Part shown: positions 3,956-48,474 of the stretch, one piece after another
Numbering within the stretch: the first letter of the stretch is position 1
Layout: the number at the start of each line of letters is the position of its first letter
Assembly: GCA_951799425.1 (NCBI GenBank)
Contig: OX637391.1
Span: 24,166,551-24,230,550, forward strand
DNA: 64,000 nucleotides
Direction of reading: 5' to 3'
From: Ilex aquifolium
Taxonomy: Eukaryota > Streptophyta > Magnoliopsida > Aquifoliales > Aquifoliaceae
Made by a program: the position numbers and the translations under genes
The notes under the pieces: model-generated
Databases searched by the model: none
The model's input: only the letters and a program-made list of their open reading frames with translations
Told to the model about the DNA's origin: nothing

Positions 3956-3963
3956 TATTTATA
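3956..3963 (-). promoter_or_regulatory. TATA box of solo LTR
   Basis: The minus strand reads CCTATAAATAC. It lies 54 bp downstream (minus-strand sense) of the CGTTCGAACG cluster, the same order as in the family B Athila LTRs. Confidence 0.6.
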
Positions 3964-4016
3964 GGGTGAGAAATGACCTCCTGTGAGCGATTCTGAAACC
4001 CATAATTCGCAAGTCA

Positions 4017-4163
4017 CGTTCGAACGTCATTGGCGTTCGAACGTTCGTCACTCCCAGTACTTTTGTTTTTCCATCAGACAAGAGTACTAGAACGCACTTT
4101 CGTTCGAACGTTTATTCACGTTCGAACGTCGATTCACGTTCGAACGTCATTTCACGTTCGAAC
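4017..4163 (-). promoter_or_regulatory. CGTTCGAACG palindrome cluster in solo LTR
   Basis: About six CGTTCGAACG or nearly identical sites occur in 147 bp, several spaced by 7-10 bp. The first pair (4017-4026 and 4034-4043) has a 17-bp period. This is the same motif as in family B Athila LTRs, although the LTR termini are unrelated. Confidence 0.65.
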
Positions 4164-4560
4164 AGAATTCCTGTTTTTGCTGAAACTTCCAGTGAAGTTT
4201 TGGCCTATTTAGAGATTGATTTGGAAATGTTTCGTGAAATACACTTTTGTAGTCCTAGATGTCTAATATCTACTATAAAAATTTCGGATCAATTGGACAT
4301 CAGGATAAAGAGTTATGATCAAAATACTAGTAAGTGTCCAAAGTCCTTTCTACCCAAGTTTTCTCTTAAATGTGCTTTCATTCCGAAAATCTTCCTAGCT
4401 TCTAATACATACTCTATTACACCGCCTAACATTTTTATTGCTACTTTTCCAATCCACCAAATTCAAACACACATCACTACGCATATCCCCATTTTTACAA
4501 CATTTGTTTACTATATATCTATATACATATATAAAAGAAAATACGGGGTGTTACAAGCCA

Positions 4561-13513: not shown

Positions 13514-15194
13514 TGATTAGCACAAAATAATGCACATCATGTATGCTTTTATACCCCTTTTATACTTACTTTTGTGGTGGAAATGGGAAGAAATGCAATT
13601 AATCAAATAATTAATGAAGTTGTTGTGTGATTGTAGGTAAAGAGTTGGATATGGCTTGAGTTAAGCTCCCATCGTAGTGCTCAAAGTCAAGGGAGATGGG
13701 GGGTGGCTTAACGGGAGGCTTGGAAGGTGAAGAAATCAAGAAAAAGACAAATCAGGAGAAAACCTTCCGGAAGGTTTGGTCATCGACCTTCCAGAAGGTT
13801 TGCACACTGGAAGGCAAATACTCTGCCCCTGCCAAAACCTTCCGGAAGGTTTTGCTTCGACATTCCAGAAATTTTTGCACACTGGAGTTGGTTATACTAC
13901 AAACCTTCCGAAAGGTTTTGCACACTAGAAAAAACCTTCCAGAAGGTTTTGCTGAAAAACGCCAGACACCTACAACTCAAGCTCTGCCACTTAGGGGTCC
14001 CACCATTACTTCTCCCACACATTTCCTGACATTGTCTACATACAACCATGCCTACAAGACCCTAGCTTCTGACTTTTGAGGTTGGAGGATGGGAAATGAA
14101 GAGAGAGAAAGAGGGAGGCATGGTGGTTGCTGGGTAGGCTTGTCCTAGCCTGTCCAAGCCATCAACTCACCTCCCATTGATGGGAGGCCTGCACGTACAG
14201 GCTATAGGAGCCTCATGGAAGAAAATGCATAGGAGTTACACCATTGTAGACCATTATTCAGCATTTTAGAGAGAGAAAGTTTGGATTTTTGCATTTCCTT
14301 ACCCATTTCACTTGTAGTGAGTTGTAATACTCTTGTAATCTTCATTTATTGCACTTCAATGTCATTTATTTCAAGTGTATTCCAAGTTTAGTCATGTATC
14401 TTTGAATCTACCATTGTTACATACGAGTTTTTCACTTCAAGCTTTTTAGTTGGGTATTAAATGCACGTATATTTGTAGTCTCACTTTTCTTTACATGAAG
14501 ACAAGTTTTAATCTCCATTTCATTACCATGTCTCTTTCTACATTGTATGTCTTTGCATTTAATATGAGTAGCTAAGTTTTACGTTGGCTAATCCAAGGGA
14601 GATTTTCTCTTGGGTATGCTAAATCAACTCTCCTCCATTTTTCCTCATAGTGTAAAGTGTTTGATTTGACTAGGTTGAGTGTGGACGTGGTTGTGAGCTC
14701 ATGATACACCGTAGATTTGTCACGGGGTATGCTTGAGCCTGCACCTCGACTTTAGTCCCTCACTTCCTACGAATCAATCGAACACCTAGGCACCATTGGA
14801 AGAATGTTTTGAGTTGATTTGGCATTCCCATTGGAATGACCTCTTCAGATTAGCCAACCTTGTTTCCATTACATTTTAATCGAAAAACTTCACTCACCAA
14901 AACACAAACTCACAAGATTTTACACTTTTCCATTTATAAAAAATCACCTTCACATGATTCAATATACCTTTCCTGAGGAGACGACCTTGGAATACCCATT
15001 CCAAGTAAAACACGACACTTGAAAGTCTCTCTTCGCTTGGGGAGCACTTTTGCACACACACACTCACATTTTCATTCACACTCATGTTTTTCCCATTTCT
15101 AGCATCGAACCAGAGGGAGAGTGACACTCACCTACACACATAAGCCATATATAAATGATCGGGTGATGTTCGGAGATTAGGGTGAACGATATCA
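13514..15194 (+). repeat. 5' LTR of element A1
   Basis: Begins TGATTAGCAC and ends GATATCA, eight bases before the primer-binding site. It pairs with 46696-48447. It includes the palindrome cluster at 13760-13950. Confidence 0.85.
13760..13950 (+). promoter_or_regulatory. CTTCCGGAAGG palindrome cluster, 5' LTR of A1
   Basis: About six copies occur 246-436 bp into the LTR. Exact copies are at about 13762 and 13839; the others have one or two changes, mostly in the central CCGG (CCAG). Confidence 0.6.
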
Positions 15195-15202
15195 AGTATT
15201 TT

Positions 15203-15304: not shown

Positions 15305-16913
15305 TTGTATATACTTTTGTTTACTTTTCATTTCAATTGTAGATATTGTTTTTGCATGTGGGGACGGGACGACCAAAATAGATCGGTTAGACGAACCCTA
15401 GAACCTAATATGAATCTTGACCAAGACCCACCCAAGGATGCCGGTGAAAACTTTGAGGATGAGGAGGCTAATGTTCCACGGGGTGGGGGAATACAAAACC
15501 CTAGAATGCCAAACCCCCGAATGCATTTTTCCCCTCCTATGAATGAGGGAAACAATATCCCAATTGATCCTCCGGCTAGGTCAATGCGGGATTATCTCCA
15601 ACCCACTCGTAGCACCACTCCTTCATGCATTCTTTTACCGGTCCAAGCTCATGTCGTCCTAGTTAAACCAGGAATGTTACAACTACTTCCTCAATTCCAT
15701 GGAATTGAAAGGGAAAATCCTTATTTGCACATTAAGGAATTTGAGGAAATAGTTGCAACTTTTCTCACTAATCATGCCATGGAAGACATAGCTCGCATGA
15801 AATTGTTCCCATTTTCCCTTAAAGACAAAGCCAAAACGTGGTTGAATTCCTTGAAGCCTAAATCAATAAGCTCTTTGACACAAATGCTTTCTGAGTTTTT
15901 GAACAAATTTTTTTTCGGTGCCCAAGACCACCGCTCTTAAAAAGCAAATCCAAAATTTTTCAAAAAAGCCCAATGAACAATTTTATTAATGTTGGGATCG
16001 CCACAAGGAATTGCTACAATCCATTCCACATCATGGTTTTGAACCATGTCAATTGATGAGTTTTTTCTACGAAGGGATTACACCGGGCCATCGACAGTGC
16101 ATAGACATGATATGCAGTGGGGAGTTTTTAAACAAGTATCCCGATAAGGCCCTAGAGTACTTCAATACATTGGCACAAAATGCACAATCTTGGGATATCA
16201 CGGATCCCGCCGATGTACCGAGGTCCTCTCCGGGTAGTAATCAACCAAGTGGGGGAGGGATGTATGATTTAAGGGATCAGGAAGACTTGCTTTCCAAAAT
16301 CACCAAATTGTCTCGAAAAGTGGAGAGTTTTGAGGTCAATAAGAGACATGTGGTGTCCAACATTTCCAAGACTGAGAAGTTTTGCTCTATTTGTTAGATT
16401 GTTGAGCATTCCATATCGGAGTGCCCCAACATTCCGGCACTTAAAGAGGTGTACCTTGAGCAAGTCAATGCCTTCAATCAAAGTAGGCAATCATTCTCCC
16501 CATACTCTAATAGATACAATATGGGTTGGATTAATCACCCAAACTTTAGTTGGAAGAATGAGAATCCCACTCCTCACGGGTCTAGTTCATATTCACCTCC
16601 CATGCCTCCCAAGAAAAACCAATACCATGGTCAAGGCCCTTCGTCTAGCTCCCAATACCCCCGGTCCAATCCACAAGGGTTTTCACAAAATCCGCCTCTA
16701 CAAATTTTTGGTCAACAAGGACTATCTAACCCACCCACCTACCAACCAACTCATAAAAGAAACTTGGAGGATGTGGTGCACCAATTCATCCAAAGCCAAG
16801 CCACCATCAACAATCAAACCGCTGCCGCTTTTAATGACATTCAGACTCAAATCACAAAATTGACCAATGCCATAGGGTCATCACAACAAGAGAAGGGAAA
16901 ATTCCCCGCTTAA
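15305..16913 (+). pseudogene. gag: Athila gag of element A1 (fossil)
   Basis: Encodes the capsid and nucleocapsid region of an Athila Gag. The recognisable order is an acidic N-terminal stretch, LQPTRSTTPSCILLP, QLLPQFHGIERENPYLHIKE, the capsid core ending ESFEVNKRHVV, a region where the zinc knuckle is expected, NHPNFSWKNE, and a Pro/Ser/Gln-rich tail before EKGKFPA. The order matches the gag at 53290-54835. The copy is broken, with a few breaks. It lies between the primer site and the protease region, as expected. Confidence 0.85.
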
Positions 16914-19452: not shown

Positions 19453-19826
19453 TGATGCTTGATCTGAAATGTGTACACCCAAGTGCAAGCGGTCAAGCTA
19501 TAGTAATAATCCGGTTTGAGTCCGGAGTCGAATCCACAGGGAACTTTTGTTGATATTTCTGAGGTGAGCAGTGGTAGAGACCTATTGATTGTAACCTTTG
19601 AGATTTGCTGTGAGATATGAGTTTTTCTGGACAGAATATTGATTAGTACTTAAAGTTGACATATTATTATGAAATTTTAAGACTAATGGTACTTTAATGG
19701 AGTTTAAGTGATGTCATTTCAGGCCCTAAACTGAACAAGGACCCAAGAACAACAAGTACCACACTTGGAGGCAGCACCAGTACATTAGAGCCCAAAATTG
19801 GAGAAGCTTGGAGCACAGCCAGAACG

Positions 19827-20190
19827 TTCGAACGCCAACTCACGTTCGAACGTCCACAATACATTGTAGCAGACTCAACTGCTGAAGAGAAGGCGTGTTG
19901 CAGTTAGGAAAGAAGACTGGAGCTCTGAAGTACTTGAGTGCACGTTCGAACGCCAACTCACGTTCGAACGTACACTTGAGTTGATGGAAGACCAGACCAC
20001 TGCAGAGAATTGGAACTGAACTTCACAGAAGACCACAGATCACTCGAGTGAAAGGGGTCAGAGCAAATCTGGCGTTCGAACGCCCTTAGTGCAAAAACAA
20101 GAAGAAACGTTCGAACGACAATCAACGTTCGAACGCCCTCAGTGCAAAAACAGAAAGAACGTTCGAATGCCAACTCAAGTTCGAACGTTA
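19827..20190 (+). promoter_or_regulatory. CGTTCGAACG palindrome cluster (inverted LTR fragment)
   Basis: About eight CGTTCGAACG or near-identical sites occur, several in pairs with 8-bp linkers (for example CCAACTCA). They lie upstream of TATAAATA at 20280. Confidence 0.65.
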
Positions 20191-20279
20191 TCCACAGACT
20201 GGCAGCAGAGTTGTTGACTGTTCACTTGGACTTGGGCATCAAACACTATTCTTTCACCCCCCTGCCTCCTCCTCTTGCC

Positions 20280-20287
20280 TATAAATA
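20280..20287 (+). promoter_or_regulatory. TATA box, family B LTR fragment
   Basis: GCCTATAAATACTCCCC sits about 90 bp downstream of the palindrome cluster. The same block is found in every family B LTR. Confidence 0.65.
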
Positions 20288-21979
20288 CTCCCCTTGTTGG
20301 AGAGCTAAAAAAAGGAGAGCATAGTAGGAAATAGATAGTGATGGAGGCTTAGACTCCCACTCTCATTGTAGTTAGTTCATTTTCCTTATGAAGTCTTTAT
20401 TTTAGAGATTAGTTTGGCTTTAGCCCAACATCTCTTGCTTGTTATAACAGTAGTTTTATGCTTATGTTTATGTTTATGCTTTCATTTCTCATGCATAGAA
20501 GAGAAATAGCTCCCATCTTGGTTGAGGAAGCAACCCTCCAATCTTTGGTTGAGGAAGCCACCCTCCAAATGTGACTAGCTTTCTTCTACTTTTATTGTTC
20601 ATGCATTTCACTTCCATTGCTTGAGCTTCCTTCTTTCTTAGAAGAGTGAAACTCTTCCACTTTTCTAGAGCTTGATTAAAGCCGTGAAGGGTGGAACGTG
20701 ATTCACTCATTCTTTGCGGAAGATTCGCTCCGCGTTTGTTGTTACTTTATCTTTTAAAGTTCTCCACTTGGAGGGATGAGCATCACTCACTTTTCTAGCT
20801 TTACCCAAGCCATGAAGAGTGAGTAGTTTCTCATTCACTCTTTAGTGAGAGGAGAAAGGCATGTACAAGTTATCCGGGAATCATATTTGTGCAATGTTCT
20901 TTTATGCTTAACGTCACTCTTTAGTGCAAGGATCTGGACATGTAGCTAGTTATCCGGTTTGTCATAATTGTGCTTGATAACTCAATTAACTCCCGTGTCA
21001 ATAGAAAGTTAATCGGAAGATAAAGATGGATTGTGAGAATTAAGAACATGATTCCGATGTCTTTCTAGAAGTTTACAAGAATTGCCTGTGCCGAGACTTA
21101 ACTCGTCTACAAACAAGCAAGTGTTTCTACAAGATATCCAATCATGATATTAATATTTCATTCTTTAAATGAAGTACAATAAGGGGGAAGATTGAGGGGT
21201 AGTCATGAGGATCTAGCCGGGGTACTTGCCTTGAACTGATGAGTCTGTCTATGCAAGAGTCATCCGTGTCATAGAAAGAACCCACAATTATACAAAGTAC
21301 CCTAGCTTTGCTAGATGCAATCAATCATCCAATAACAAGAAGAAATAAGCGTTAAGCATAGAAACATTGCACAAATATGATTCCCGGATAACTTATACAT
21401 GCCCTTCTCCTCTTACTAAAGAGTGAATGAGAAACTACTCACTCTTCATGGTTTGGGTAAAGCTAGAAAAGTGAGTGATGCTCATCCCTCCAAGTAGAAA
21501 ACTTATAAGATAAAGTAACAACAAATGCGTAGCCAATCTTTAACAAAGAATGGGTGAATCACATTCCACCCTTCACGGCTTTGGTAAAGCTCTAGAAAAG
21601 TGGAAGAGTTTCACTCTTCTAAGAAAGAAAGAAGCGCAAGCAATGGAAGTGAAATGTATGAACAATAAAAGTAGAAGAAAGCTAGTCACATTTGGAGGGT
21701 GGCTTCCTCAACCAAGAATTGGAGGGTTGCTTCCTCAACCAAAAGGTGAGCTATCTCTCTTCTATGCATGAAAAATGAAAGCATAAACATAAGCATAAAC
21801 ATAAAACTACTGTTATAACAAGCAAGAGATGTTGGACTAAAGCCAAACTAATCTCTAAAATAAAGACTTCATACAAGGGAAATGAGCTAAATCTACAATG
21901 AGAGTGGGAGTCTAAGCCTCCATCAACTTTCCTACTTCCTACTTCCTACTTGGCTCCCATAACTCTCCAACAAGGGGAG

Positions 21980-21987
21980 TATTTATA
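21980..21987 (-). promoter_or_regulatory. TATA box, 3' LTR of element B
   Basis: TATAAATA on the minus strand, at the same place relative to the palindrome cluster (22447-22087) as in the 5' LTR. Confidence 0.65.
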
Positions 21988-22086
21988 AGCAAGAGGAGGA
22001 GACAAGGGGGGGGGGGGTGAAGGAATAGTGTTTGCCGCCCAAGTCCAAGTGAACAGTCAACAACTCTGCTGCCAGTCTGTGAATAC

Positions 22087-22447
22087 CGTTCGAACGTGAG
22101 TTGGCGTTCGAACGTTCTTTCTGTTTTTGCACTAAGGGCGTTCGAACGTTTACTGCCGTTCGAACGTTTCTTCTGTTTTTGCACTGAGGGCGTTCAAACG
22201 CCAGATTTGCTTTGACCCTATCACTCGAGTAGTCTGGTGGTCTTCTGTGAGGTTCAGTTCCAACTCTTTGCAGTGGTCTGGTCTTCCATCAACTCAAGTG
22301 TACGTTCGAACGTGAGTTGGCGTTCGAACGTGACACTCAAGTGCTTCAGAGCTCCAGTCTTCTTTCCTAACTGCAACACGCCTTCTCTTCAGTAGTTGAG
22401 TTTGCTACAGTGCAATGTGGACGTTCGAACGTGATTTGGCGTTCGAA
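22087..22447 (-). promoter_or_regulatory. CGTTCGAACG palindrome cluster, 3' LTR of element B
   Basis: About eight sites, mostly paired: 22087-22096 with 22104-22113, a pair near 22140-22165, a pair near 22302-22329 and a pair near 22421-22449. Linkers are commonly 8 bp. Confidence 0.65.
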
Positions 22448-22633
22448 CGTTATGGCTGTGCTCCAAGCTTCTCCAATTTTGGCTCTAATGTGCTGGTGTT
22501 GCATCCAAGTGTGGTACTTGTTGTTCTTGGGTCCTTGTTCAGTTTAGGGCCTGAAATGACATCACTTAAACTCCATTAAAGTACAATTAGTCTTAAAATG
22601 TCATAATAACATGTCAATTTTAAGTACTAATCA

Positions 22634-24455: not shown

Positions 24456-25562
24456 TCACTCTCCTCCTTGTGCACCATCTCCTCCATGTCCACCATGTCC
24501 ACCCCTCAAAAGCCTAAGGATCTCATCCTGCTTAGCTTCAATGCTAAGCATGACGTCCAATAAGGAGCGTCGGGTGCTGGTGCTGGTGCTAGGTCCCGCC
24601 TCTGCTGGCTGATCTCCCTCTCTCTCCATCTCTCTCTCCATCTCATCAAGCTCCTCTTGTACCTCATCCACTCCGTGGGCCGGGGGCTCTTCTTGCCTTG
24701 TCGCTGGGCCGCCACTATGACTTTGGCTTCTCCGGAAGGAAGCCTTGTTCAGTGGCCCCATTGGCTTTTGGATTTCCATCTCGGGCTTCACCCTCACCCC
24801 ATGTTCTTTGCATAGTTCTGTCACTAGGGTGCCGAAAGGAAGCGAATTCCTCTTCACATCACACCCTTTTTTCATTTCTGTCAGAATTAGGGAGGGGAGA
24901 TCAATGCTTTGCCCTTTTCCAATCGCATACAACACCCGAGCCATGTTAGGTAAAACTTCATTTTTTCTTCCTATTGGAGCAAAATTTGACACCGCAATTA
25001 AGTTTAACATTTTGTATTTGTCACTTAGCTCCCCTTGTCTAAAAAATTTCTTCCCAGTCCACGAAAAATTGGGTACTCTAGTCAGTTCCTTCCCCACCTC
25101 ATTCATCGCCACATTCTTCCTTGAAGGATAAGCGGGATTTGGCACCCGAGGCACCTATTGCCTTACTCCCCAAATGTAATCTTTATCAACGTCCACATGG
25201 ACTCCCCTTACATACGTTCGAATTTCCCCCTCGATGATCTCGGCGTTGGAGAAAAACTCCCGCACCAAGTCGACTACGGCCTCACCGCCGTTCCTTAAAT
25301 ACAACAACCACCCCCTCCTTTCCATCTCCGCAAAGATTCCCAACTCCGCAAAATCAGCCAAAATCACATCTCTTTCACAAACAATGGCTTTGTTTTGGTA
25401 GAAATTTTCAAACCTGTCTGCTTTTAGAGCTGTGAGAAACCGAGTCTTGTCGTATCTCCTTGTGAGTGGTGGCATTCCTTCTCTCACCACCACCACTTCT
25501 TCGACAAAATTTGGCTCTTGGGTGTTTGGGTTCTTCCTGGCAAGAAGCTTGACTCTTGGCAT
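24456..25562 (-). pseudogene. ORF3 of element B, PF20167-like 'putative plant transposon protein'
   Basis: I place the start at the ATG giving MPRVKLLARKNPN, because it parallels MARTK in A1 and lies downstream of the TATA box at 25779-25773. The order is a basic N-terminus, the block FYQNKAIVCERDVILAD, a 'RRGWLLYL ... VREFFSNAEI' core, YVRGVHVDVD, then a second block with FSWTGKKFF and NMARVLYAIGKGQSID, and a Glu-rich possible coiled coil with a Gly/His tail. By recall this is the Transposase_32 domain attached to many plant Athila/Tat-type elements; its biochemical role is unknown. The copy is broken, with about one break. Long plus-strand open frames over the same bases are shadows. Confidence 0.75.
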
Positions 25563-25772
25563 TTTTTCAGTTTTTGAGTTGGAGGGTTTTGAAATCTTTG
25601 ATTTCTTTGTGAAAATGGATCTTCTTGAAGTGGAAAATGTCTTGGGAGGGTTGATTTTTGGTGAAGATGGAGAATGGTTGGGGTTTTGGGATCTGGGTAG
25701 TGAAGAGTCTCCAAGGTTTTTTGGGTTTTCAGAAGTTTTGGAGGGTTTTGAAATGAAGAAGACGAGCCGGGC

Positions 25773-25779
25773 TTTTATA
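25773..25779 (-). promoter_or_regulatory. Candidate internal TATA box upstream of ORF3 (element B)
   Basis: The minus strand reads GGCTATAAAAGCC. It lies 14 bp downstream of the internal palindrome cluster and about 210 bp upstream of the MPRVK start codon. The intervening leader is C/T/A-rich, like plant 5' UTRs. It suggests a separate ORF3 transcript. Confidence 0.55.
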
Positions 25780-25792
25780 GCCTGAGTCGTAA

Positions 25793-26096
25793 CGTTCGAA
25801 CGTTTGTGACGTTCGAACGTGGATAGAAGGATTTTAAACAGACTGTTCGAACGTGGTATGGCGCTCAAATGTGGTGAGCTCCAAGTACTTTTGTGTTCTG
25901 TCAGAGGCCAAAGTATTGTAAGTTCTCTTCGTTCGAACGTTCTATTGGCGTTCGAACGTTAATCTCGTTCGAATGGTCTATTGGCGTTCGAACGGACTGA
26001 GCTCCCAATACTTTTAAGTTCCAGCAGAAGCTTCATCAGAGGCTGAATACTGTACGCAGTCAACGTTCGAACGTTACCTAGCGTTCGAACGTTGAA
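25793..26096 (-). promoter_or_regulatory. Internal CGTTCGAACG cluster upstream of ORF3 (element B)
   Basis: About eight exact or one-off sites occur, including pairs with 7-8 bp linkers (25793-25819 and 26064-26093). This is the only part of the B interior with the motif, and it mirrors the U3 arrangement of the LTR, including the following TATA box. Confidence 0.6.
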
Positions 26097-27066
26097 CCAA
26101 AATTAAAGTTTTTCTCTACTACACTATATACAATCAAAGAAAACAAAACACACAAATTTAAATCAAGAAAAACTAAGGCGTCTCAGGATGAACCCCTACC
26201 CACGCTTCAGGTTGGTATTTTGGGGCATTCCTTACTCGGCCCATATTTTCATTTCAGTCAAAAGATTTTTACACTTTTTACAACAAATTCGGACCTTTGG
26301 CATTCACTCCCCCAACAAAAGTACAAATTTCCTACAGAAAATTATCTAATCCGAGTCTCCCTCTGTGTCTGTGTAAAATGGACAACCAGTAACTCTCCCA
26401 ACTTCCTCTCTCACAAATCGGTTAAGCACAGTACCGGAATAGCATGGCGTATTAGGGTAATCCTTACTCAGTCCATTCACTATCCAGTCTAATCGATCAA
26501 GTGGGCGACCGGAAATTGTTTCAGAACACTGGTTGTACCTTTTTTCGTGAAAGAATCAGCCACACTGTTTACAGGCACCAAGCCTTTTTGCACGACGGCG
26601 ATTGGCAAAGCTGTTTTTGCCACAGAGGGGTTTCGCTTGTTTTTCTTTGATTTCAGCCTTCCTTACTAATCTTGCTTTTCTCATGATCATAATATGTACA
26701 TCAGATGGAAAAGTACGTAGAACTCCTAGGCTAAACCAAAAAAGATTTACATCCATGATTGCTAAATTTTAAGACTCACTATCTGGTTCTTTAACGTCTG
26801 CCAGTCACAAAGACGATTGAAACTGATTCATAAGCATAATCATCAATTTATACAATCAATGTTCAAACATGATTAACAGCGACAATAAAAATTTAAAAAT
26901 TTACGAAAATTATGAACGAAAAAGAACTGATGAACTGATCATACCCCCCAACCTAAACTGAACATTGTCCCCAATGTTTCGAATTTACCGGTTCATGGAG
27001 TGTGGAGACGAGGTTGAATGGTAGAGATCTATTCACCGCTGAGACCTACAAACAAAAACACAAAAA
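26097..27066 (-). other. Non-coding region between gag and ORF3 (element B)
   Basis: It occupies the position where pol would lie in an autonomous Athila element. I see no protease, RT or integrase wording on either strand. Confidence 0.5.
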
Positions 27067-28559
27067 TTACTCATCTGTGCGCAGATCTGGTTTTCGGGTG
27101 TTTCCTGTTGTTGAAGGGTTCCCTACATGGAATTGGCCTTGTGGTTGCTTTGGTTGAGCAGGAAACTTTCCCTTTTCGTGTGTGACCATGGATTGAGTCA
27201 ACTTTTGGATGTGGCTTTTAAGATCCTCAAAAGATTGAGTGGTCTGGGTTTTGAAATCAGTGAAAGCCTGTGTGGAATTATTGTTATAATTCATTTGGCT
27301 TTGCATGAACTGATTCAGTGTGTCCTCAAGGTTCCTCTTTTGTGGTGGTTGGTATGGTTGATATGCAGGAGGTCCTTAAGGTGGTGGGTATGGTCCTTGT
27401 TGTTGGTTCATGGGTATTGGTTGTGTGTTCTTCCAACTGAAGTTAGGGTGGTTTCGCCACCCAGGATTGTATGTTTCAGAATATGGGTTGGAGTAGGGCT
27501 TGTTGAAGTTGGAAACTGCATGTGTTTGTTCCAACAAGACTTCTTTGAATGCTGGGATGGTGGGACACTCCCCAGTAGGGTGTCCTGTTAGCGCACAAAT
27601 TCCACACATTTGCTCGGTGGAAGGGCTAACATCAACTTGATGGACTTTCTTCATCTCTAAAGCTTCAAGCTTTCGAGATAGTGTGGACATTTTTGCTCTC
27701 AAGTCATCATCCTCTCTCAAGACATATTTTCCTCCTTGGGAATTAGATGGTCTGGCTTCTACAGTGGTAGGGGAGGCTGAGTCCCACATCTGAGAACTGT
27801 CAGATATGGTGTCGAAAAAATTGAATGCCTCCTCCGGACTTTTTCCCATGAATTCTCCTTGGCCATCATTTCGACAAACTGACGTAGTCTAGAGGGTAAG
27901 GAGTCATAGAAAAATCCTACCAAAGTCCAATTTTCAAAAGCATGATGTGGGCAGGATTGGAGCAGATCTTTGAATCTCTCCCAACTTTGATAAAAAGTTT
28001 CTCCTTCTTTGACCGCAAAATTCATGATTTGCCTTTTTAGTGCATTTGTGCGGTGTAAAGGAAAAAACTTTCTAAAAAATTCATTTTGTAATGCTTGCCA
28101 ATTGGGTATTGAAAAAGCCTTTAAAGAATTTAACCATTGTTTGACTCTATCCCTCAAGGAAAAAGAAAACAGTTTCATTTTGGCCAATTCAGAATTGTCT
28201 TGGAATGTTCCACACACTTCCTCAAAATCTTTTATATGCAGATATGGATTTTCTGCATCCAATCCATGAAACACGGGTAATAACTGCACTGTCCCCGGCT
28301 TTACAGTAAAGAGGGGAGCATTTTCAGGAAAAATAAAACAAGAGGGGACACTATTTCTTGTGGGATTTAAGTAATCCTGCAAAGTTCGGATGTTAGGGAC
28401 CTCCTCCTCTCTCATAGGAACTTCTCCATTTCTTTCATTATTTGCCATACTACCCTCACAAGAGTCTGCTACTGATCTAGGTGAATTAGGTTCAGGTTGA
28501 TTCACGGACTCACACGATTCTGCCGGCAAATTTTGGAAGTGAGGAGTGCCCTCAGTCAT
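27067..28559 (-). pseudogene. gag: Athila gag of element B
   Basis: Encodes an Athila-type Gag. The order is an acidic N-terminus, LQDYLNPTRNSVPSCFIFPE, the capsid core (QLLPVFHGLDAENPYLHIKD through FVEMM), MSTLSRKLEALEMKK, a zinc knuckle of the form CX2CX4HX4C (CGICALTGHPTGECP), NHPNFSWKN, and a tail ending EKGKFPAQPKQ. It is close in wording to the A1 gag but clearly a different family. It starts about 95 bp inside the primer site. It is broken, with about two or three breaks; the capsid part is open over most of its length. Confidence 0.88.
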
Positions 28560-28652: not shown

Positions 28653-28670
28653 TCCCCGGCAACGGCGCCA
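28653..28670 (-). other. Primer-binding site of element B (tRNA-Asp)
   Basis: The minus strand reads TGGCGCCGTTGCCGGGGA, a perfect complement of the plant tRNA-Asp 3' end, six bases after the LTR end. Confidence 0.88.
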
Positions 28671-29982
28671 AAAACTTGATGCTTGATCCGAAATGTGTAC
28701 ACCCAAGTGCAGGCGGTCAAGTTGTAGTAATAATCCGGTTTGAGTCCGGAGTCGAATCCACAGGGAACTTTTGTTGATATTTCTGAGGTGAGCAGTGGTA
28801 GAAACCTATTGATTGTAACCTTTGAGATTTGCTGTGAGATATGAGTTTTTCTGGACAGAATATAAGATTCTTTCCAGGAAGATTTTCTTAACAAAATAGG
28901 TGCTAATAAAAAAAAGTCACTCTTTAGTGCAAGGATCTGGACATGTAGCTAGTTATCCGGTTTGTCATAATTGTGCTTGATAACTCAATTAACTCCCGTG
29001 TCAACAGCAAGTTAATCGGAAGATAAAGATGGATTGTGAGAATTAAGAACATGATTCCGATGTCTTTCTAGAAGTTTACAAGAATTGCATGTGCCGAGAC
29101 TTAACCCGTCTACAAACAAGCAAGTGTTTCTACAAGACATCCAATCATGATATTAATATTCCATTCTTTAAATGAAGTACAATAAGGGGGAAGATTGAGG
29201 GGTAGTCATGAGGATCTAGCCGGGGTACTTGCCTTGAACTGATGAGTCTTTCTATGCAAGAGTCATCCGTGTCATAGAAAGAACCCATAATTATACAAAG
29301 TACCCTAGCTTTGCTAGATGCAATCAATCATCCAATAACAAGAAGAAATAAGCGTTAAGCATAGAAACATTGCACAAATATGATTCCCGGATAACTTATA
29401 CATGCCCTTCTCCTCTTACTAAAGAGTGAATGAGAAACTACTCACTCTTCATGGCTTGGGTAAAGCTAGAAAAGTGAGTGATGCTCATCCCTCCAAGTAG
29501 AGAACTTATAAGATAAAGTAACAACAAATGCGTAGCCAATCTTTAACAAAGAATGGGTGAATCACATTCCACCCTTCACGGCTTTGGTAAAGCTCTAGAA
29601 AAGTGGAAGAGTTTCACTCTTCTAAGAAAGAAAAAAGCGTAAGCAATGGAAGTGAAATGTATGAACAATAAAAGTAGAAGAAAGCTAGTCACATTTGGAG
29701 GGTGGCTTCCTCAACCAAGAATTGGAGGGTTGCTTCCTCAACCAAAAGGTGAGCTATCTCTCTTCTATGCATGAAAAATGAAAGCATAAACATAAGCATA
29801 AACATAAAACTACTGTTATAACAAGCAAGAAATGTTGGACTAAAGCCAAACTAATCTCTAAAATAAAGACTTCATACAAGGGAAATGAGCTAAATCTACA
29901 ATGAGAGTAGGAGTCTAAGCCTCCATCAACTTTCCTACTTCCTACTTCCTACTTGGCTCCCATAACTCTCCAACAAGGGGAG

Positions 29983-29990
29983 TATTTATA
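29983..29990 (-). promoter_or_regulatory. TATA box, 5' LTR of element B
   Basis: The minus strand reads CCTATAAATACTCC, about 100 bp downstream of the palindrome cluster. Confidence 0.65.
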
Positions 29991-30087
29991 GGCAAGAGGA
30001 GGAGACAAGGGGGGGGGGTGAAGGAATAGTGTTTGCCGCCCAAGTCCAAGTGAACAGTCAACAACTCTGCTGCCAGTTTGTGAATTA

Positions 30088-30455
30088 CGTTCGAACGTGA
30101 GTTGGCGTTCGAACGTTCTTTCTGTTTTTGCACTAAGGGCGTTCGAACGTTTACTGCCGTTCAAACGTTTCTTTTGTTTTTGCACTGAGGGCGTTCGAAC
30201 GCCAGATTTGCTTTGACCCTATCACTCGAGTAGTCTGGTGGTCTTCTGTGAGGTTCAGTTCCAACTCTTTGCAGTGGTCTGGTCTTCCATCAACTCAAGT
30301 GTACGTTCGAACGTGAGTTGGCGTTCGAACGTGACACTCAAGTGCTTCAGAGCTCCAGTCTTCTTTCCTAACTGCAACACGCCTTCTCTTCAGTAGTTGA
30401 GTCTGCTACAGTGCAATATGGACGTTCGAACGTGATTTGGCGTTCGAACGTTATG
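30088..30455 (-). promoter_or_regulatory. CGTTCGAACG palindrome cluster, 5' LTR of element B
   Basis: About eight sites are arranged in the same pairs as the 3' LTR cluster at 22087-22447. The few differences between the two clusters are mostly C/T or G/A changes in the central CG. Confidence 0.65.
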
Positions 30456-30844
30456 GTTGTGCTCCAAGCTTTTCCAATTTTGGCCCTAATGTGCTGGTGC
30501 TGCATCCAAGTGTGGTACTTGTTGTTCTTGGGTCCTTGTTCAATTTAGGGCCTGAAATGACATCACTTAAACTCCATTAAAGTACAATTAGTCTTAAAAT
30601 GTCATAATAACATGTCAATTTTAAGTACTAATCAATGATCTCTTGAGAGTGTTGAGGAGGTGATTAGTAGTTAAAAAGAGTAACTTACTATGCCCTTTTT
30701 AAGACTAATTATTCTTTGATAGAGTTTCATTGATGACATTTCAGGAGAAAGATTGTGCAAGGGCCTACAAGTTAAGGGATACCAAATTTTCATACAACAC
30801 CCCCGTTCTGGAGGAAAATTGGAGAGGTTTGAAACAAGGCATGA

Positions 30845-31175
30845 ACGTTCGAACGCCAATCCATGTTCGAACGTCCTCTTGAATTATTTGAGGACCAAAC
30901 TGCTGAAGTGATGATACATGGCGTGTTGTAGCTAAGAAGAAAAACAAAAAGGTGTTGGAGTACCACGTTCGAACCCCAATCAACATTCGAACATTGGCTT
31001 GAATTATTGAGAACCAGATTATTGAGTGCAAGGGCAATGGTACATGGCGTGTTGCAGTTACTCTCACAGAAGAACATAGGCCACTTGAGTGGGAAGATCA
31101 AACCCCATCCAGTGTTCGAACGCTCATCAAGTAAGACAGGAGACAACGTTCGAACGCCCTCTAACGTTCGAACGC
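30845..31175 (+). promoter_or_regulatory. CGTTCGAACG palindrome cluster, solo LTR
   Basis: About seven exact or degenerate sites occur 184-510 bp into the LTR, upstream of TATAAATA at 31291-31298. Position and order match element B. Confidence 0.6.
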
Positions 31176-37332: not shown

Positions 37333-37405
37333 CAAAACCTTCCGGAAGGATTTTTCCAGTGTGCAAACCTTCTGGAAGGTCGAAGCAAAACCTTCCATAA
37401 GGTTT
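37333..37405 (+). promoter_or_regulatory. Internal CTTCCGGAAGG cluster upstream of ORF3 (A1)
   Basis: Three copies (one exact, two with changes) lie about 380 bp upstream of the MARTK start. A C/T-rich leader-like stretch (37465-37570) follows. No canonical TATA box is seen, unlike element B. Confidence 0.5.
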
Positions 37406-37784: not shown

Positions 37785-38499
37785 ATGGCCCGAACCAAAA
37801 TCACGGGTCTGGGCTCCTTACAACCTGCGGGCACTAGTTCCCGCAAGAGGAGTGTGGAGGGCCCTAGTAGCGGATATAGGGCAGAGAGGAGGACAAAAGC
37901 AAGAAATGATGCTCGCAATCAAAGGATTGAGGAGAAACATGTAACTTGTGAGCATTTTGTGGATAGGCCCACTCTTGGGCAGAATAACGAAGTGGTGAGG
38001 ATCATTGAGGGTCATGGGCTGGGGATTTGGTTTGAGCTAGTTAGCAGGTATAACCTGGCTTTGTGTAGGGAGTTCTATAGGAATTTGAACGTGGTGGATG
38101 AGGATGGTAGTATTCTTAGGACGAATGTGAGGGGGAAGACGTTTGACGTGACCCCAGATTTGATTGCCACATTGATGAAATACCAGAGGCCTCCCCCTAA
38201 TACCCCGGTCTACCCACACAATGTCCAAGGGAGAAAAACACTCTCTGAGTATGTACAGCTTACCTATTAGGACCCGACCCAATTCAAGGGGACAACTCTA
38301 GTCGGGGGCCTCAAGCACTCCTACGGTGTCATGAACAAGATCTTGCACTACAATCTGAGCCCTCGGGGAAGGGAGAAGAACTCTAGTGTGGAGAATCTCG
38401 CCCTTCTACATGCATTCATGACCGGGAAGAGATGTGGCTCTATTAATCTGGGAGTTCATGAAGGAGTTCGCTCAGGCTGCAAAGTCGAAGGCGAATCTC
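37785..38499 (+). pseudogene. ORF3 of A1, first part (PF20167-like)
   Basis: I choose the ATG giving MARTKITGLGS because it parallels MPRVK in element B; an upstream ATG at 37684 is possible. Visible blocks are a basic N-terminus, ARNQRIEEKHVTCEHFVD, a 'LALCREFYRNLNVV' core, VRGKTFDVTPDLIATLM, and LHYNLSPRG. It belongs to the same PF20167-like family as element B ORF3. The gene is split by the insertion of element C; the remainder lies at 45870-46360. The copy is broken apart from that insertion. Confidence 0.75.
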
Positions 38500-40396
38500 T
38501 GATGAGAGCAAAATATTGCATATTTGATGGCCTCATTATATGCATTTTAACTCAACTTTTGCATTTAAGTACTTAGTGTTAGCCAAAGTTGTGAATAATG
38601 TTGATATTTTGATGTTGCATGTTTTGATAGCTTAAATGATGGATTTTAGGACTTTGCAACTATGTTGGATGTGAGGTGAAGTGGTGGACTCATAAAATGA
38701 GGATTGAGAGGCTTGGAAGGTAAAGAAATCAAGAAAAATGCATTTTGGATGAAGACCTTCTGGAAGGTTTATGAAGACCTTCCGGAAGGTTTAGCCCACT
38801 GGAATTTCGTAATTTTGACACTGTACCACTGTTTTTCTAAATTTTGACCATGATCTACTTCGAATTTGAAAAAGTGCAAAACATGAAAGTTGTAGATATG
38901 GATGTCTTTTTTATTGTGTCAAAATTTCAGATCAATCCAACGGTTGGATCAAAATTTATTATTTTTCTACCAAACCTGGTCCAGAGCTGTCACCAGATTC
39001 CAGTAGGTTAAACCTTCCGGAAGGTTGTCATCGTTCTTCCGGAAGGTCTTGCCCAGAATGCGAAAAATAGCTTGCAACTCAACTTTGCGGCTTGGGGGTC
39101 CCACCTAATCTTCTCCCACTTGCTCCCCAACATTATCTTACACAAGCACATGCTTCCCTTACACATTTGGAGGACTTTGGAGGCTTTGCATTGAAGAAGG
39201 CATGGGAGGGAAGTGGGCTACCATGGGGGTGTTGTCCTAGCTTGTCCAAGGCAATCAACTCAGCCCCTCTTTGGTGTAAGACCTGCACACACCTAGGGGG
39301 ACCCTCCATGGACGAAATTCGAGGCTCTCACTCTCCATTATACATTCAACATTCAACACACAAGAAAAGGGGTTGGCTACCTAAGCTTAGGATTAGATAT
39401 AGAAAGCTCCAAGGGGGAAGATGATGAATAGTGCTCAAAGTGACGTTTTTGCATTTTTCTTCCACTCTTTCACTTGTAGTTTAATGTAAGAACCTTGTAA
39501 GCTTCATTTATTGTCTTTAATGTCATTCCTTTCAAGTTTATTGCAAGTTTACTTTCATGTTCTTCATTTCACCATTGTTATTTAAGTTTTCTTCATTTCA
39601 AGCTTGTATATTGGGTATTGCATATTTTTCCTTCATAGCTTTAGATTTCTTGTTGTAAGTTAAGTTTCATGCTCCATTTCCCTTCCATGTCTATTTACAT
39701 TATGCTTGTCTTTCATTTATGCATAAGTAGCTAGCTTTTAAGTTGGTTAGTCCAAGGGTGAATTCCATTTGTGGATTCCATTCCAACTCTCTTTCATTCC
39801 TTCTCTCGGTGTATGTTGGCTCGGTTTGATTGGGTTGAGGGTGGATAAATTGGTGAGTCTTTGATATTCCGTAGGCCTAGTCACGGTTTATGCTTGGATA
39901 CTCACCATTTTATCCCTAGCTTCCCATGAATCAATCGTACTTCTAGGCACCATTGGAGGAAGGCTTTGAGTTGGCTTGATATTCCCATTGGAATGAACCT
40001 CTTGGATTAGCCAACACTTGCTTTCTTGCATTTTCATTTTGAACAAAACTCAACAAAACACAAATACAAGATTTTACACTTTCTTTTCTCTTTTTGCAAA
40101 ATCACTTTCACAAAACTCCCTTTCCTTCCCTGAGGAGACGACCTTGGAATACTTTTCCAAGTAAAACACCGACAACGAAAGACTCCTTGCGATTGGGGAG
40201 CACTTTTGTTCACCACACACGCATTCCATTTCATAACATTTTGTTCATTCCATTCATTTCCATCACCATTCCATTGTTGCCTAATCTTTTGCATCATTCC
40301 GAGTGAGAGTGACACTCACCCATTCCTATAAGCCATACACACAATTAGGGATGATGTTTAGGGGTTAGGGAATACAACACGGTTTTCATTCAATCA
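38500..40396 (+). repeat. 5' LTR of element C
   Basis: Starts TGATGAGAGC, ends CAATCA. It contains CTTCCGGAAGG-type palindrome pairs near 38756-38790 and 39013-39050. Between them lies 'gaaagttgtagatatggatgt', a block shared with the LTR remnant at 48475-49214. Open frames in the LTR occur identically in both copies and have no family signature. Confidence 0.92.
38756..39050 (+). promoter_or_regulatory. Two CTTCCGGAAGG palindrome pairs, 5' LTR of C
   Basis: One pair lies at about 38756-38790 and another at about 39013-39050, with more widely separated members than in A1. The same pairs recur at 44229-44263 and 44486-44523 in the 3' LTR. Confidence 0.6.
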
Positions 40397-40399
40397 TTT

Positions 40400-40417
40400 T
40401 GGCGCCGTTGCCGGGGA
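40400..40417 (+). other. Primer-binding site of element C (tRNA-Asp)
   Basis: TGGCGCCGTTGCCGGGGA, a perfect match, three bases after the LTR end. Confidence 0.9.
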
Positions 40418-40526
40418 AGGTAAAGCGTCGAGTTCGAGGGTGATTTTGGGACGGCATAAGGTAAGTCTTGTGATTTTCATCACGGGCCAAGGTATGTCAT
40501 CTAACTTGTAAATATTTTATTTTTGT

Positions 40527-41513
40527 TTGTGTTTTGTAATTTTTTCTAATTATTATGGAAATGTATATAATGCCCAAAATTTACAAAATGTGTGTAAGAT
40601 TTGTGATGAGTATGGGCATATTACTAGTGAGTGCCCAAGAATGGCCTCTTATTTTGAAAACGTTTGCAAGATTTGTGGTGAATATGGACACATCACTAGT
40701 GAGTGCCCTATAAATGCCCCTTATTTTGGAAACGTTTGCGAAATTTGTGGTGAAAATGGACACCTCACTAGTGAATGCCCAATAAATTATTCGGTTCAAC
40801 ACTTTGAATGCGAAGGTTCAAATTCAAATTTGGCCTCCAAAATTTTTTACCCTAACCATTATGTTACACCGAGTTATTCGAGTTATGGTTGGGAGAATGA
40901 ACCTCATGATTGGTCATCCGATCTCACACCACCAAATGAATCTCCCCATTATCCAACATATGAGGACTCAACCGAACAAGCATTGGAAAATACTTTTTAT
41001 GAGTTTATGCAATCCCAAATGGAATGCAATGCCCAAATGGAATGCATTGCCCAACAACTTAATGCATTGACTAATGCTACAATTGTTATGCATGAAGAAC
41101 AACACCTTGAGCATAGTCAATGTATTGAGGATGACCCCCCCAATGAAATGCATATGGATGTTGAATCTCCCACCACTATAGATTGTGAAACATTTGATGA
41201 ACTTATTATCTTGCATGAGGCTAATGAGCCCAAGGTCATTTTTCCATCTAGGAGTGGTGTTGAGATTCACATTTCTCAACTTGGGGAGGGCATTGAAATG
41301 AAGTTAAGTGTTGAAACTCTTAAAGAGAAATTGTATATTCCATTTGTTGCATTGCATAAACTTACATACACCCTAGTTTGGTTTAGATTTTTGAATAATT
41401 ATCTCTTATATTGTTGGATAGATTGGATAGAAAGGGCATTGATGCAACAAAAAAAATTTAAAATCAAGAAAATCCATGGGCGCAAGGTCATATCCGAATT
41501 GAAGCCGGATTGA
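40527..41513 (+). CDS. Gag-derived protein with three tandem zinc knuckles (element C)
   Basis: One continuous frame of about 328 codons. Near the N-terminus are three zinc knuckles of the form CX2CX4HX4C, beginning CKICDEYGH, CKICGEYGH and CEICGENGH, with a near-identical 24-25-residue spacing that indicates internal duplication. No capsid region precedes them. The rest is acidic, with EFMQSQMECNAQMECIAQQL as a possible coiled coil, and a basic C-terminus (KKFKIKKIHGRK). Gag normally has one knuckle, so this may be a trimmed nucleocapsid that binds the element's RNA for packaging by helper proteins; that role is inferred. There is no in-frame ATG before the first knuckle, so the true start is uncertain. 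Confidence 0.65.
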   Translation: MCFVIFSNYYGNVYNAQNLQNVCKICDEYGHITSECPRMASYFENVCKICGEYGHITSECPINAPYFGNVCEICGENGHLTSECPINYSVQHFECEGSNSNLASKIFYPNHYVTPSYSSYGWENEPHDWSSDLTPPNESPHYPTYEDSTEQALENTFYEFMQSQMECNAQMECIAQQLNALTNATIVMHEEQHLEHSQCIEDDPPNEMHMDVESPTTIDCETFDELIILHEANEPKVIFPSRSGVEIHISQLGEGIEMKLSVETLKEKLYIPFVALHKLTYTLVWFRFLNNYLLYCWIDWIERALMQQKKFKIKKIHGRKVISELKPD

Positions 41514-41704
41514 CAATAGCCCTCTTTGTTTGTTTTAATGTACATAGTAGTTAGCCCTCTTTGTTTTTATTTTCATGTATATATGTGTGATTCAAGTTTT
41601 TGATAGGTTATATGTCTTAGAAAGGGTGTTAAAATGTTTTGGAGTTGAGGAGATTTGGTTTGGTTGAGAATTTTTTTTTAAAAGCAATGGAATGGTTTTG
41701 CAGC

Positions 41705-42020
41705 AAAAGGCAATACCTTCCGAAAGGTTTCATCGACCTTCCGGAAGGTTTTATTCCAGTGAGCAACACCTTCCGGAAGGTTTCATTGACCTTCCGGAAG
41801 GTTTTGCCTACTGGAATTTTTTGCCTCAGGCGATAAGCAAAACCTTCCAGAAGGTTTCATCGACCTTCCGGAAGATTTTGCCTACTGGAGTGAAACCTTC
41901 CGGAAGGTTTTGTCTACTGGAATAAACCTTCCGGAAGGTTTTACCTGTTGACCTCTTTATTCAACTGTTCCTGCTCAAACCTTCCGGAAGGTTTCTATCG
42001 ACCTTCCGGAAGGTTTTGCC
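41705..42020 (+). promoter_or_regulatory. Internal CTTCCGGAAGG array of element C
   Basis: About ten exact or one-off palindromes occur in ~315 bp, mostly in pairs with the linker TTTCATCGA or close variants (21-bp period). It is the densest cluster in the window. The flanking blocks (41585-41650 and 42018-42040) match the ORF3-upstream region of A1 (37222-37270 and 37403-37430), but no ORF3 follows. Confidence 0.65.
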
Positions 42021-42228
42021 CAAAATGCTAAAAAAAGAGGGTTTTATGTTAAAATTTTTGAAAAACCCTTTACATTTCCCCCAAACCTCAAGCTCCCAAG
42101 ATTTCTCCTCTCCTTCTGCTCTATTCAACTCTTCGACATACCTCCTCTAAAAAAAAAAAAAAAAAAGAGAAAAAGAGTGTATCTTATTTTTCCCCTTTCT
42201 TTCATTTTTCTCATTGCATGATTCTTTG

Positions 42229-42263
42229 TGCATTGAGGACAATGCATAGTTCAAGTTGGGGGG
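42229..42263 (+). other. Internal hairpin and polypurine-like tract, element C
   Basis: TGCATTG-AGGA-CAATGCA (42229-42246) followed by AGTTGGGGGG (42254-42263). It corresponds to 35456-35490 in A1. Confidence 0.6.
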
Positions 42264-43936
42264 TGAGGTGCACCATTTACATGTTCCGCCATTTTTTGTA
42301 TAGAATAAGTTGGAAATGTGAAATTTTTTTAAAAAAAAATTTTGGAACATTTTTGTGAAAAATATTCAATATTGAACTATATTCCTCTATCTTAGTTGTT
42401 ATGGGATTTGTGAATTGCTTGATCTTCATTTTGAACTTTGAATACATGAGCACATTATAGAAGTTTATCATATTGCCAAGAGTATCACATATGTGTTTTC
42501 TTTCAAACTTTACCATAGTGCACCATGAACTTGTAATTTTGGTAATTTACGGATTGAGTTCACATTTTAGTGCTTGACATGAATAGTGGAGATGAGTAAG
42601 AACCCATGTGAGCTTTAGTGCCAATTCTTGTTGGAGGGAACTTACATGTACTCAAGGAACAATTTTTCAAATTTCACATTTGTTCAATAATCTCATTATG
42701 CTTATTTTGGTTAGGTGCATTTGTGTAGTTGATTGACTTTGTCTTGAAATGCAATGTGCTCTCCCATGCCTATCTAGAAATGATCTTAGGCCATCTTTGA
42801 TTTGCTTTGAGCCTTAGCCTTTTTCTTGTGAAAAATTTATCCCTAGTGCCATGGTTGAGCCTAATTGAATTCGTTTCTATGCCATACATTTGACCAAGCC
42901 AATGAAAATGATAAATATCTACCTTACCTTGGTTGTTCCTAGAGCTAAGTATGAGTAATCATAAAAGAGAAGGAAGTATGGTGTGGAAACTCAAACAAAA
43001 AGGATGAATGATGTTGGAACTCAAAGAGTTCAAACGGAAAAGAATGATAAAATACAAGAGAAGGAGAAAAATGGGTGAAAGAAGAAAAAAAAGAAAAGAA
43101 TGATAAGGAAAAGAAAAGAAACAAAGAATTGGTGATGGTGTGAGAATCAAAATCCCAGGAAAAGGGAAGTGTTTGTCCAAGATTTAAAGTCTCTCACTCG
43201 GAACAACCCTCTTTGTTATCCTATACCCTTCATTTCACCTACCTAGATACCACCCCAAGGCCCCATTATAACCCTTGAAAGTCCTAAATGATCTAGAGAA
43301 GCATGGGGAAGGCACACTTTTAAAGAAAAAGTAAAGTTAATTTTGCTATCTAATGCCCTAGCATTCCTTTCATGAGATTATGCCAAGGTTGTTTCATTTG
43401 TATACATGTGCTTCATTTTTGGATTATATGCGAGCACTTTGTTTTGAGCACAAGATTCTATCTCACATATACACATGGAGAGCATGCTAGGATAATCATG
43501 AGTGATTCATTGTTGAGAGAACACCCTTGGTGAGTTTTTGCATCGAAGCTTAATTTGGATAGCCATGTGAATGTGAATTACGTTGAGTAAATGCTTAAAT
43601 TACATGTTCATTCCACACACACACGAGTTTGAAAATGAATGTGTAGGTGAATACTCTAGAATAGCATTTAAAGCTATAATGTGTTTCATTTGTTTTTAGT
43701 TCGGGTGTTTTGAACAAAGCTATTTTTGAAATCCCATTGCTAGTTAAGATAGGGGAATATGCTTTAAATATTGGATATTAGCAAAAGAAGTTTGTAGGTA
43801 CCTTCACTGGAAACCTTCACGAGACAAAACTCGTCCACTAGGGATCACCTAGGGGTTTAAAGGCTTATTGCATATGCTAAATGCAATTTCGGAATTAGTA
43901 TAGGTTTATTTTTTGTTTGCTTGCTTTTACATTTTG
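42264..43936 (+). other. 3' non-coding module of element C
   Basis: No coding pattern. It follows the same order as 35491-37040 in A1 (for example 'tacatgagcacattat', 'cttgacatgaatagtgg', 'aggccccattataaccc'). A purine-rich stretch lies at about 43010-43165. Confidence 0.65.
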
Positions 43937-43972
43937 TTTGCTAGGGACTAGCAAAGCTTAAGTTGGGGGGTG
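43937..43972 (+). other. Hairpin and polypurine tract of element C
   Basis: TTTGCTAG-GGA-CTAGCAAA (43937-43955) is a perfect 8-bp stem with a 3-base loop, followed by AGTTGGGGGGTG immediately before the 3' LTR. Confidence 0.75.
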
Positions 43973-48447: not shown

Positions 48448-48474
48448 AACAATAATTCCTACTTGTTGCCATAC

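Follow-up and report, generated by a model that had tools for sequence, protein, structure and literature searches.

A palindrome cluster shared with the LTR, a TATA box and a G-poor leader as a probable internal promoter for the extra 3′ ORF of a gypsy-type retrotransposon

The window, that is the whole 64-kb stretch of DNA analysed here, has a GC content of 39% and holds nested LTR retrotransposons; its gene content suggests a flowering plant as the source. One of these, element B, is a minus-strand element without pol. Self-comparison places its 5′ LTR at 28682-30634 (minus strand, the inner end being approximate) and the main part of its 3′ LTR at 20910-22633 (minus strand), the two being 98.2% identical over 1724 aligned columns. 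The last ~190 bp of the 3′ LTR (19453-19639, minus strand) are displaced behind an inverted LTR fragment at 19640-20913. A primer-binding site (PBS), TGGCGCCGTTGCCGGGGA, is matched exactly at 28653-28670 (minus strand) and likewise in element D at 40400-40417; we take this sequence to be complementary to tRNA-Asp and to be the PBS type used by Athila/Tat elements. The gag of B (27376-28559, minus strand) lies in two overlapping frames, 27759-28559 and 27376-27849, the first of which matches PF03732 (Retrotrans_gag, E 3.9e-16), and is disrupted by one frameshift and one stop. It resembles the gag of putatively gypsy-type, pol-bearing elements elsewhere in the window, with 51% over 181 aa to the gag at 53486-54028 and 44-48% to that at 15422-16115. 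Across the whole window 21 ORFs reach 150 aa, and among these B has no pol, its only minus-strand ORFs being gag and the pieces of ORF3. We take B to belong to a putative Athila-like Ty3/gypsy setting; no Sirevirus-type gene, as a Ty1/copia Sirevirus with ENV would carry, was found among its Pfam matches.

After gag, B carries in order a polypurine-tract-like stretch (26944-26972, soon after gag), a short broken ORF (26346-26756), a palindrome cluster and ORF3, all on the minus strand. The short ORF has one in-frame stop and its first 66 aa match PF05515 (Viral_NABP), so that we read it as what remains of a nucleic-acid-binding gene of carlavirus type; the NABP-like piece had no relatives in PHROGs or in a viral contig collection, the latter a poor place to look. 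ORF3 is not intact in the present copy: a TAG in its frame, at 25157-25155, leaves two pieces of 135 and 232 codons. The first piece, beginning MPRVK (25155-25562, minus strand), ends at this TAG and matches PF20167 positions 1-53 with 28.6 bits, whilst the second (24456-25154, minus strand) matches positions 73-176 with 55.0 bits. Measured against the curated PF20167 cut-off of 45 bits, the second piece lies above and the first below, as does a piece from element H (28.3 bits). By these matches ORF3 is a predicted extra 3′ ORF of the Transposase_32 (PF20167) family. No relatives of ORF3 were found in virus and prokaryote contig collections, which are poor places for such a gene, nor did PDB or NCBIfam hold a relative of the pieces tried; the fold predicted for an ORF3 piece (mean pLDDT 46) was too poor for use. 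The N-termini of ORF3 may bear some likeness to the H3 tail.

Between gag and the 3′ ORF3 lies the internal palindrome cluster of B (25793-26091, minus strand), with seven exact copies of CGTTCGAACG and two with one mismatch. The first-pass annotation had reported this cluster with an upper limit of 26096; the cluster itself is confirmed and its limit is corrected to 26091. A TATA box, GGCTATAAAAGCC (25770-25782, minus strand), begins 13 bp below the cluster, and its core TATAAAA (25773-25779) was found exactly where it had been called. GGCTATAAAAGC has a single occurrence in the window, and the chance of meeting CTATAWA downstream of a random oriented point is 0.0034 within 20 bp and 0.0205 within 120 bp. 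Two CA steps near the TATA box, 25755/25754 and 25750/25749, are candidate start positions. With the start placed by TATA spacing, the predicted 5′ leader of the ORF3 mRNA covers 25563-25754 (minus strand, 192 nt) and has no ATG, 6% G, 32% C and 41% A, being C/A-rich and G-poor. The first ATG to follow, at 25562-25560, is that of ORF3, and the MPRVK start proposed for the ORF stands. A scan of both strands in 192-nt windows at 10-nt steps, with thresholds derived from the leader itself, found a match on ATG absence, low G and high C in 1 of 12,762 windows, and that window overlies the leader; taken by itself the lack of an ATG carries no significance, since 41% of shuffles with matched composition are likewise ATG-free. 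An RNA started in the LTR (start assumed at 29960) would present 78 ATGs ahead of ORF3, 26 of these ahead of gag. No second copy of the B interior was found within the 64-kb window.

Exact CGTTCGAACG occurs 38 times in the window and not once in 100 dinucleotide shuffles, and all 38 copies lie either in five clusters in LTRs or LTR fragments or in the internal cluster of B. When up to two mismatches are allowed there are 56 matches, 49 of them within these six clusters; the remaining seven are single and scattered, all with two mismatches. The U3 regions of the B 5′ LTR (30088-30450) and 3′ LTR (22087-22449) each hold a minus-strand cluster of eight exact copies plus one. Nine copies with up to two mismatches are found in the inverted B LTR fragment (19825-20187) and seven in an old B-type LTR (30846-31174). 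The last cluster (4017-4164, minus strand, five exact copies plus one) lies in the U3 of a solo LTR at 2356-4555 (minus strand, target duplication AGCCA), with a TATA at 3964-3958. This LTR begins TGTAACACCCC and has no match to the B LTRs in self-comparison (E 1e-8), and is therefore taken as another family. CTATAWA follows on the correct strand in five of the six clusters, at distances of 13, 53, 92, 97 and 116 bp. The 97-bp case is the B 5′ LTR (CTATAAA at 29991-29985), whilst the B 3′ LTR has a TATA-like TTATAAATA instead, with TATAAA at 21987-21982. Because four of the six clusters share one LTR type, these amount to three independent cases, namely the B-type LTRs, the solo LTR and the internal site.

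The internal cluster had also been thought to copy the arrangement of the LTR. This is borne out for the motif and not for LTR sequence, since masked spacers align no better than shuffles: they score 23-28 where shuffles average 23-24, which led us to reject an origin of the cluster by duplication from the U3 of B itself. Compared with the solo-LTR U3, motifs masked, the internal cluster scored 39 (shuffle mean 20.8, sd 3.3, maximum 38 in 200 shuffles), the one comparison out of nine between unlike clusters to exceed its shuffle maximum; unmasked, the two agree at 74% over 156 columns. Copies of CGTTCGAACG are mostly paired, 17-19 bp apart. Because the internal spacers are unlike those of the B-type U3s, yet motif and pairing are kept, it is the motif itself that is shared. 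Two LTR families and one internal site thus have it in surroundings that are for the most part unlike, which suggests either that the motif was selected for or that small enhancer modules were exchanged. Words from the spacers added little: AAAAGTAYTKGGAG has six matches where 3.8 are expected, a number short of significance, its three exact matches all falling in the two clusters that supplied the word, and GCAAAAACAGRAA has 20 against 9.1 expected, a number reached in none of 100 shuffles, with many matches outside the clusters. By raw vector strength at 10.5 bp, the copies in the D internal cluster look helically phased (0.91), whereas those of B do not (0.22 in the internal cluster, 0.39 in the LTR). 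A motif-pair scan of viral contigs, a poor place to look, returned nothing, and a literature search with the letters of CGTTCGAACG gave no retrotransposon title among the matches listed.

When all exact 10-base palindromes are counted without bias, two stand out, CGTTCGAACG (38) and CTTCCGGAAG (26), followed by AT runs (5 each) and CTACCGGTAG (4). Each of the 26 exact copies of CTTCCGGAAG belongs either to an LTR of the C/H/D group or to one of the internal clusters that elements H and D carry. We infer that the plus-strand LTRs at 13514-15195 and 46696-48448, 87% identical, are the 5′ and 3′ LTRs of one element, H, split by later insertions including B and D; the 5′ LTR carries a CTTCCGGAAG cluster at 13764-13945. 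The internal cluster of H (37338-37402, plus strand) has three CCTTCCGGAAGG-type palindromes, one exact, one with one mismatch and one with two, and stands ~385 bp upstream of a PF20167 ORF. The first piece of this ORF, beginning MARTK, runs from 37785 to 38270 (plus strand) and ends at a stop at 38268; the frame is further cut by the insertion of D at 38500, beyond which the second half of ORF3 leaves a faint trace (tblastn E 0.09). In a single comparison with B ORF3 the H ORF gave 27% over 94 aa (E 8e-05). The H leader has two ATGs between 37470 and the PF20167 ORF. Element D (38500-45869, plus strand, target duplication ATCTC) has LTRs at 38500-40396 and 43973-45869 that are 99.6% identical, both with copies of CTTCCGGAAG. 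Its internal cluster (41716-42013, plus strand) comprises ten CTTCCGGAAG-type palindromes, eight exact and two with one mismatch, and is followed by a G-poor leader; neither the ORF survey nor sequence comparison found an ORF3 after it. No CTATAWA was found below the internal cluster in H or in D.

In all three elements with an internal cluster (B, H and D), the interior repeats the palindrome found in the LTR of the same element, and because H and D are related this amounts to two independent cases. The H internal cluster scored 53 against the inverted H 5′ LTR (shuffle maximum 32), and the D internal cluster 55 against the H 5′ LTR (maximum 31) and 42 against its own LTR (maximum 36), each with 100 shuffles. 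Not above shuffles were the H internal cluster against the D LTR (29 and 30) and the D internal cluster against the H 3′ LTR on the same strand (37, maximum 44). What is new here is that H and D carry CTTCCGGAAG both in their LTRs and in their interior, in H upstream of a PF20167 ORF. Moreover, a related LTR at 51490, with 71% identity to the H 5′ LTR over the first 265 columns, holds palindromes of a third type at 51737-51899 (plus strand), four exact copies of CTACCGGTAG and two decayed. These six were located by a pattern ending CGGTAG, and in a scan of the same LTR for CTTCCGGAAG every copy had at least two mismatches. The six copies read as CTACCGGTAG or its decayed form and there is no near-copy of CTTCCGGAAG; therefore both half-sites changed together. 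Among copies with a single mismatch, 8 of 10 for CGTTCGAACG and 21 of 21 for the second palindrome, scored as a 12-mer, carry C>T or G>A, the pattern that deaminated methylcytosines should leave in silenced copies. The pol-bearing stretch at 53.1-63.3 kb showed no palindrome cluster, and none of five ORFs tested there matched PF20167.

We consider the best and most likely reading to be that 26091-25563 is an internal RNA polymerase II promoter and leader of ORF3, probably co-activated with the LTR via a shared cis-element; it gains weight from H and D. The palindrome cluster would act as an upstream activating region, being the same cis-element as in the U3 of B, and a dimeric factor, encoded by the host or by the element, would bind the palindromes and activate both the LTR and the ORF3 promoter. 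The TATA box would set the start of the ORF3 mRNA ~25-30 bp below it. A factor that switches on the LTR, and with it genomic RNA and gag, would thus also switch on a short ORF3 mRNA, so that gag RNA and ORF3 mRNA would appear in the same cells with no splicing needed. A separate promoter for ORF3 was already suggested in the first-pass annotation, and the cluster, the TATA box at 13 bp, the G-poor leader and the first ATG all fit it; that both promoters answer to the same activator we infer from the shared motif. Against the promoter reading, H and D have no canonical internal TATA, the H cluster is weak, the H leader holds ATGs and B ORF3 is broken. Because both ORF3 and gag are broken in this copy, the promoter would now drive at best a truncated product, and the arrangement would be a family trait dating from the active period of B.

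Alternatively, ORF3 might be expressed from spliced RNA started in the LTR, the internal cluster being a relic of an old recombination with no transcription start. Such splicing has been proposed for the env-like ORFs of BAGY2 and Athila, and predicted splice acceptors are mentioned for both (PMC2829016). In B, an acceptor-like site at 26333 reaches the 99.1 percentile of 3760 minus-strand AGs under a rough acceptor model, built on approximate frequencies and useful as a lead only. However, because five ATGs lie between 26333 and ORF3, this best acceptor would not make ORF3 the first ORF; weaker acceptors at 25899 (93 percentile) and 25694 (91) would make that of ORF3 the first ATG. Splicing also leaves unexplained both the TATA box at 13 bp from the cluster and the composition of the leader, and we think it unlikely as the route to ORF3.

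A different role for the arrays, as anti-silencing or chromatin-boundary binding platforms across the element in the manner of VANC, with the promoter position secondary, is in our view quite unlikely. It would accord with family-specific arrays confined to LTRs and non-coding interior, with the symmetrical change of palindrome copies in one related LTR, and with the decay of near-copies almost only by C>T/G>A, as methylated cytosines would give; a drop of methylation in LTRs has been reported for a sunflower Athila group (PMC12844716). However, the arrays do not stand just anywhere in non-coding sequence but directly upstream of TATA boxes or leaders, and no VANC-like protein was identified.

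It is very improbable that the cluster is a chance or mutational by-product, arising from tandem duplication of a simple palindrome beside a fortuitous TATA. Tandem duplication clearly adds to the copy number, as the repeated spacers attest, but no copies are expected by chance, the same motif stands on non-homologous spacers, and H and D show the same design built on a different palindrome. That the cluster serves RNA polymerase III (B-box-like), or is some other element not meant for Pol II, can be virtually dismissed: the sole point in favour is the partial likeness of GTTCGAA to the tRNA B box, whereas ARAGORN found no tRNA gene in the window, CTTCCGGAAG has no B-box likeness, and a TATA box with a long leader to an ORF favours Pol II.

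The closest design to that of B is known from Sireviruses. Palindromic repeated-motif (RM) boxes are clustered in the LTR before the TATA in 13 Sireviruses (Bousios 2010, PMC2829016). Copies in the linker occur only where ENV exists, in 9 of the 13 RM-bearing elements, and 77 of 79 such copies lie before ENV (PMC2829016). This position was taken to support an internal ENV promoter, which was not conclusively identified (Bousios 2010, PMC2829016), and RM was called Sirevirus-specific, being absent from the classic elements compared (PMC2829016). Like B, these elements are thus described with element-specific, multi-copy palindromes both in the LTR before the TATA and before an extra 3′ ORF, and the RM listed for a Vitis Sirevirus, CGGTCGACCG, is one symmetric change away from CGTTCGAACG. 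The two settings differ, in that Sireviruses are described as Ty1/copia elements with ENV, whereas B has a gypsy-type gag, a PBS that we take to be of Athila type, and a PF20167 ORF3. Moreover, the internal cluster of B has a TATA box and a leader downstream, whereas the Sirevirus internal promoter is described as not conclusively identified. Judged from its sequence, B, and less clearly H, is a Sirevirus-like design in a gypsy-type element with a PF20167 ORF.

Among Ty3/gypsy elements, gene23 of maize Grande is cited as having its own internal promoter (Gomez-Orte et al. 2013, as cited in PMC7264820 and PMC11963269). Like ORF3 it is described as an additional ORF placed after gag/pol and before the 3′ LTR, whereas it runs antisense to gag-pol and B ORF3 is sense, and shared LTR and internal motif clusters are not mentioned in the available parts of these two sources (PMC7264820, PMC11963269). 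The ORF(+) of sunflower Athila 14, 487 aa long and from an element found active, is like ORF3 a sense 3′ extra ORF matching PF20167 (PMC11728184). It differs in coming from an active element whereas B ORF3 is broken, and the text at hand describes no promoter analysis (PMC11728184). Among the papers listed by searches of the open-licence literature none, judged by title and abstract opening, describes an Athila-type element with an LTR-like internal promoter. Outside the retrotransposons, arrays of the VANC21 motif are reported from non-coding regions of VANDAL transposons; as in B, H and D, these are family-specific arrays of a short motif in non-coding parts that change together (PMC5735166). 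VANDALs are, however, DNA transposons with a non-palindromic 9-base motif and a known binding protein.

We further entertain, as an improbable extension, that the PF20167 ORF encodes a dimeric DNA-binding protein for its own family's CpG-centred palindrome, in the LTR and in its own promoter, which it would activate or protect. Because palindrome and protein would change together, CGTTCGAACG, CTTCCGGAAG and CTACCGGTAG would differ between families and match within an element. Both B, which lacks pol, and D, which lacks ORF3, could parasitise such a circuit because their sites are kept. That a solo LTR from a different family also bears the B palindrome argues rather for a host factor, or for the site having been stolen.

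It is an old question by which route the extra 3′ genes of plant retrotransposons are expressed, be it splicing, stop suppression or an internal promoter. A TATA box and leader after an LTR-type cluster, together with the second palindrome in H and D, make the internal-promoter idea directly testable, and the arrangement suggests a rule common to Ty1/copia and Ty3/gypsy. The similar but weaker arrangement in H and D, with its different palindrome, is a hint at joint activation of the extra gene and the element. Were the binding factor encoded by the element, LTR retrotransposons would have an equivalent of their own to self-regulating viruses or to VANC.

A short minus-strand ORF of element B, a pol-less Athila-like LTR retrotransposon, lies at 26756-26346, between gag and the proposed internal promoter, and is broken by one in-frame stop. 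Searched against Pfam profiles, its first 66 aa matched PF05515 Viral_NABP (E = 5.1e-7, 30.3 bits, cut-off 23) and PF01623 Carla_C4 (E = 2.6e-4, 21.3 bits, cut-off 20.9), both of which are nucleic-acid-binding proteins of carlavirus-type RNA viruses, whilst the second piece of the ORF gave no profile match. This ORF looks like the relic of an RNA-virus gene borne within a retrotransposon. The phrase 'nucleic acid binding protein' was absent from the papers found by a literature search on this theme. A betaflexivirus replicase-like sequence is reported from cucumber (PMC3136472).

Element D (38500-45869) is a young plus-strand element with LTRs that are 99.6% identical, and it is inserted within the frame of the PF20167 ORF of element H. 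It contains a zinc-knuckle ORF and an internal palindrome cluster with a leader; a pol ORF is absent from D in the ORF list of the window, and ORF3 was looked for in D and not found. The ten palindromes of the cluster (41716-42013) are spaced at 21, 32, 21, 53, 21, 32, 31, 53 and 22 bp, that is, near 2, 3 and 5 helical turns, with a vector strength of 0.98 at 10.6 bp, a descriptive figure. In an H-related LTR, the palindromes found at 51737-51899 have both half-sites altered, from CTTCCGGAAG to CTACCGGTAG.

The histone H3 tail begins MARTKQTARK. The PF20167 ORFs of B (25562, MPRVKLLARK) and H (37785, MARTKIT) start in a similar way, a likeness that may be due to chance in a basic N-terminus. 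The 3′ LTR of B also shows an odd rearrangement: at 19453-20913 its terminal part is interrupted by a truncated LTR from the same family, 91.6% identical and lying in inverted orientation.

Lastly, the internal cluster of B is followed at its far end, after 33 bp, by CTATATA on the plus strand (26124-26130), opposite to that of B. The solo LTR, taken to be of another family, carries CTATAAA at 4273, 109 bp past its own cluster. The palindrome clusters might be active both ways, yielding RNA antisense to gag.
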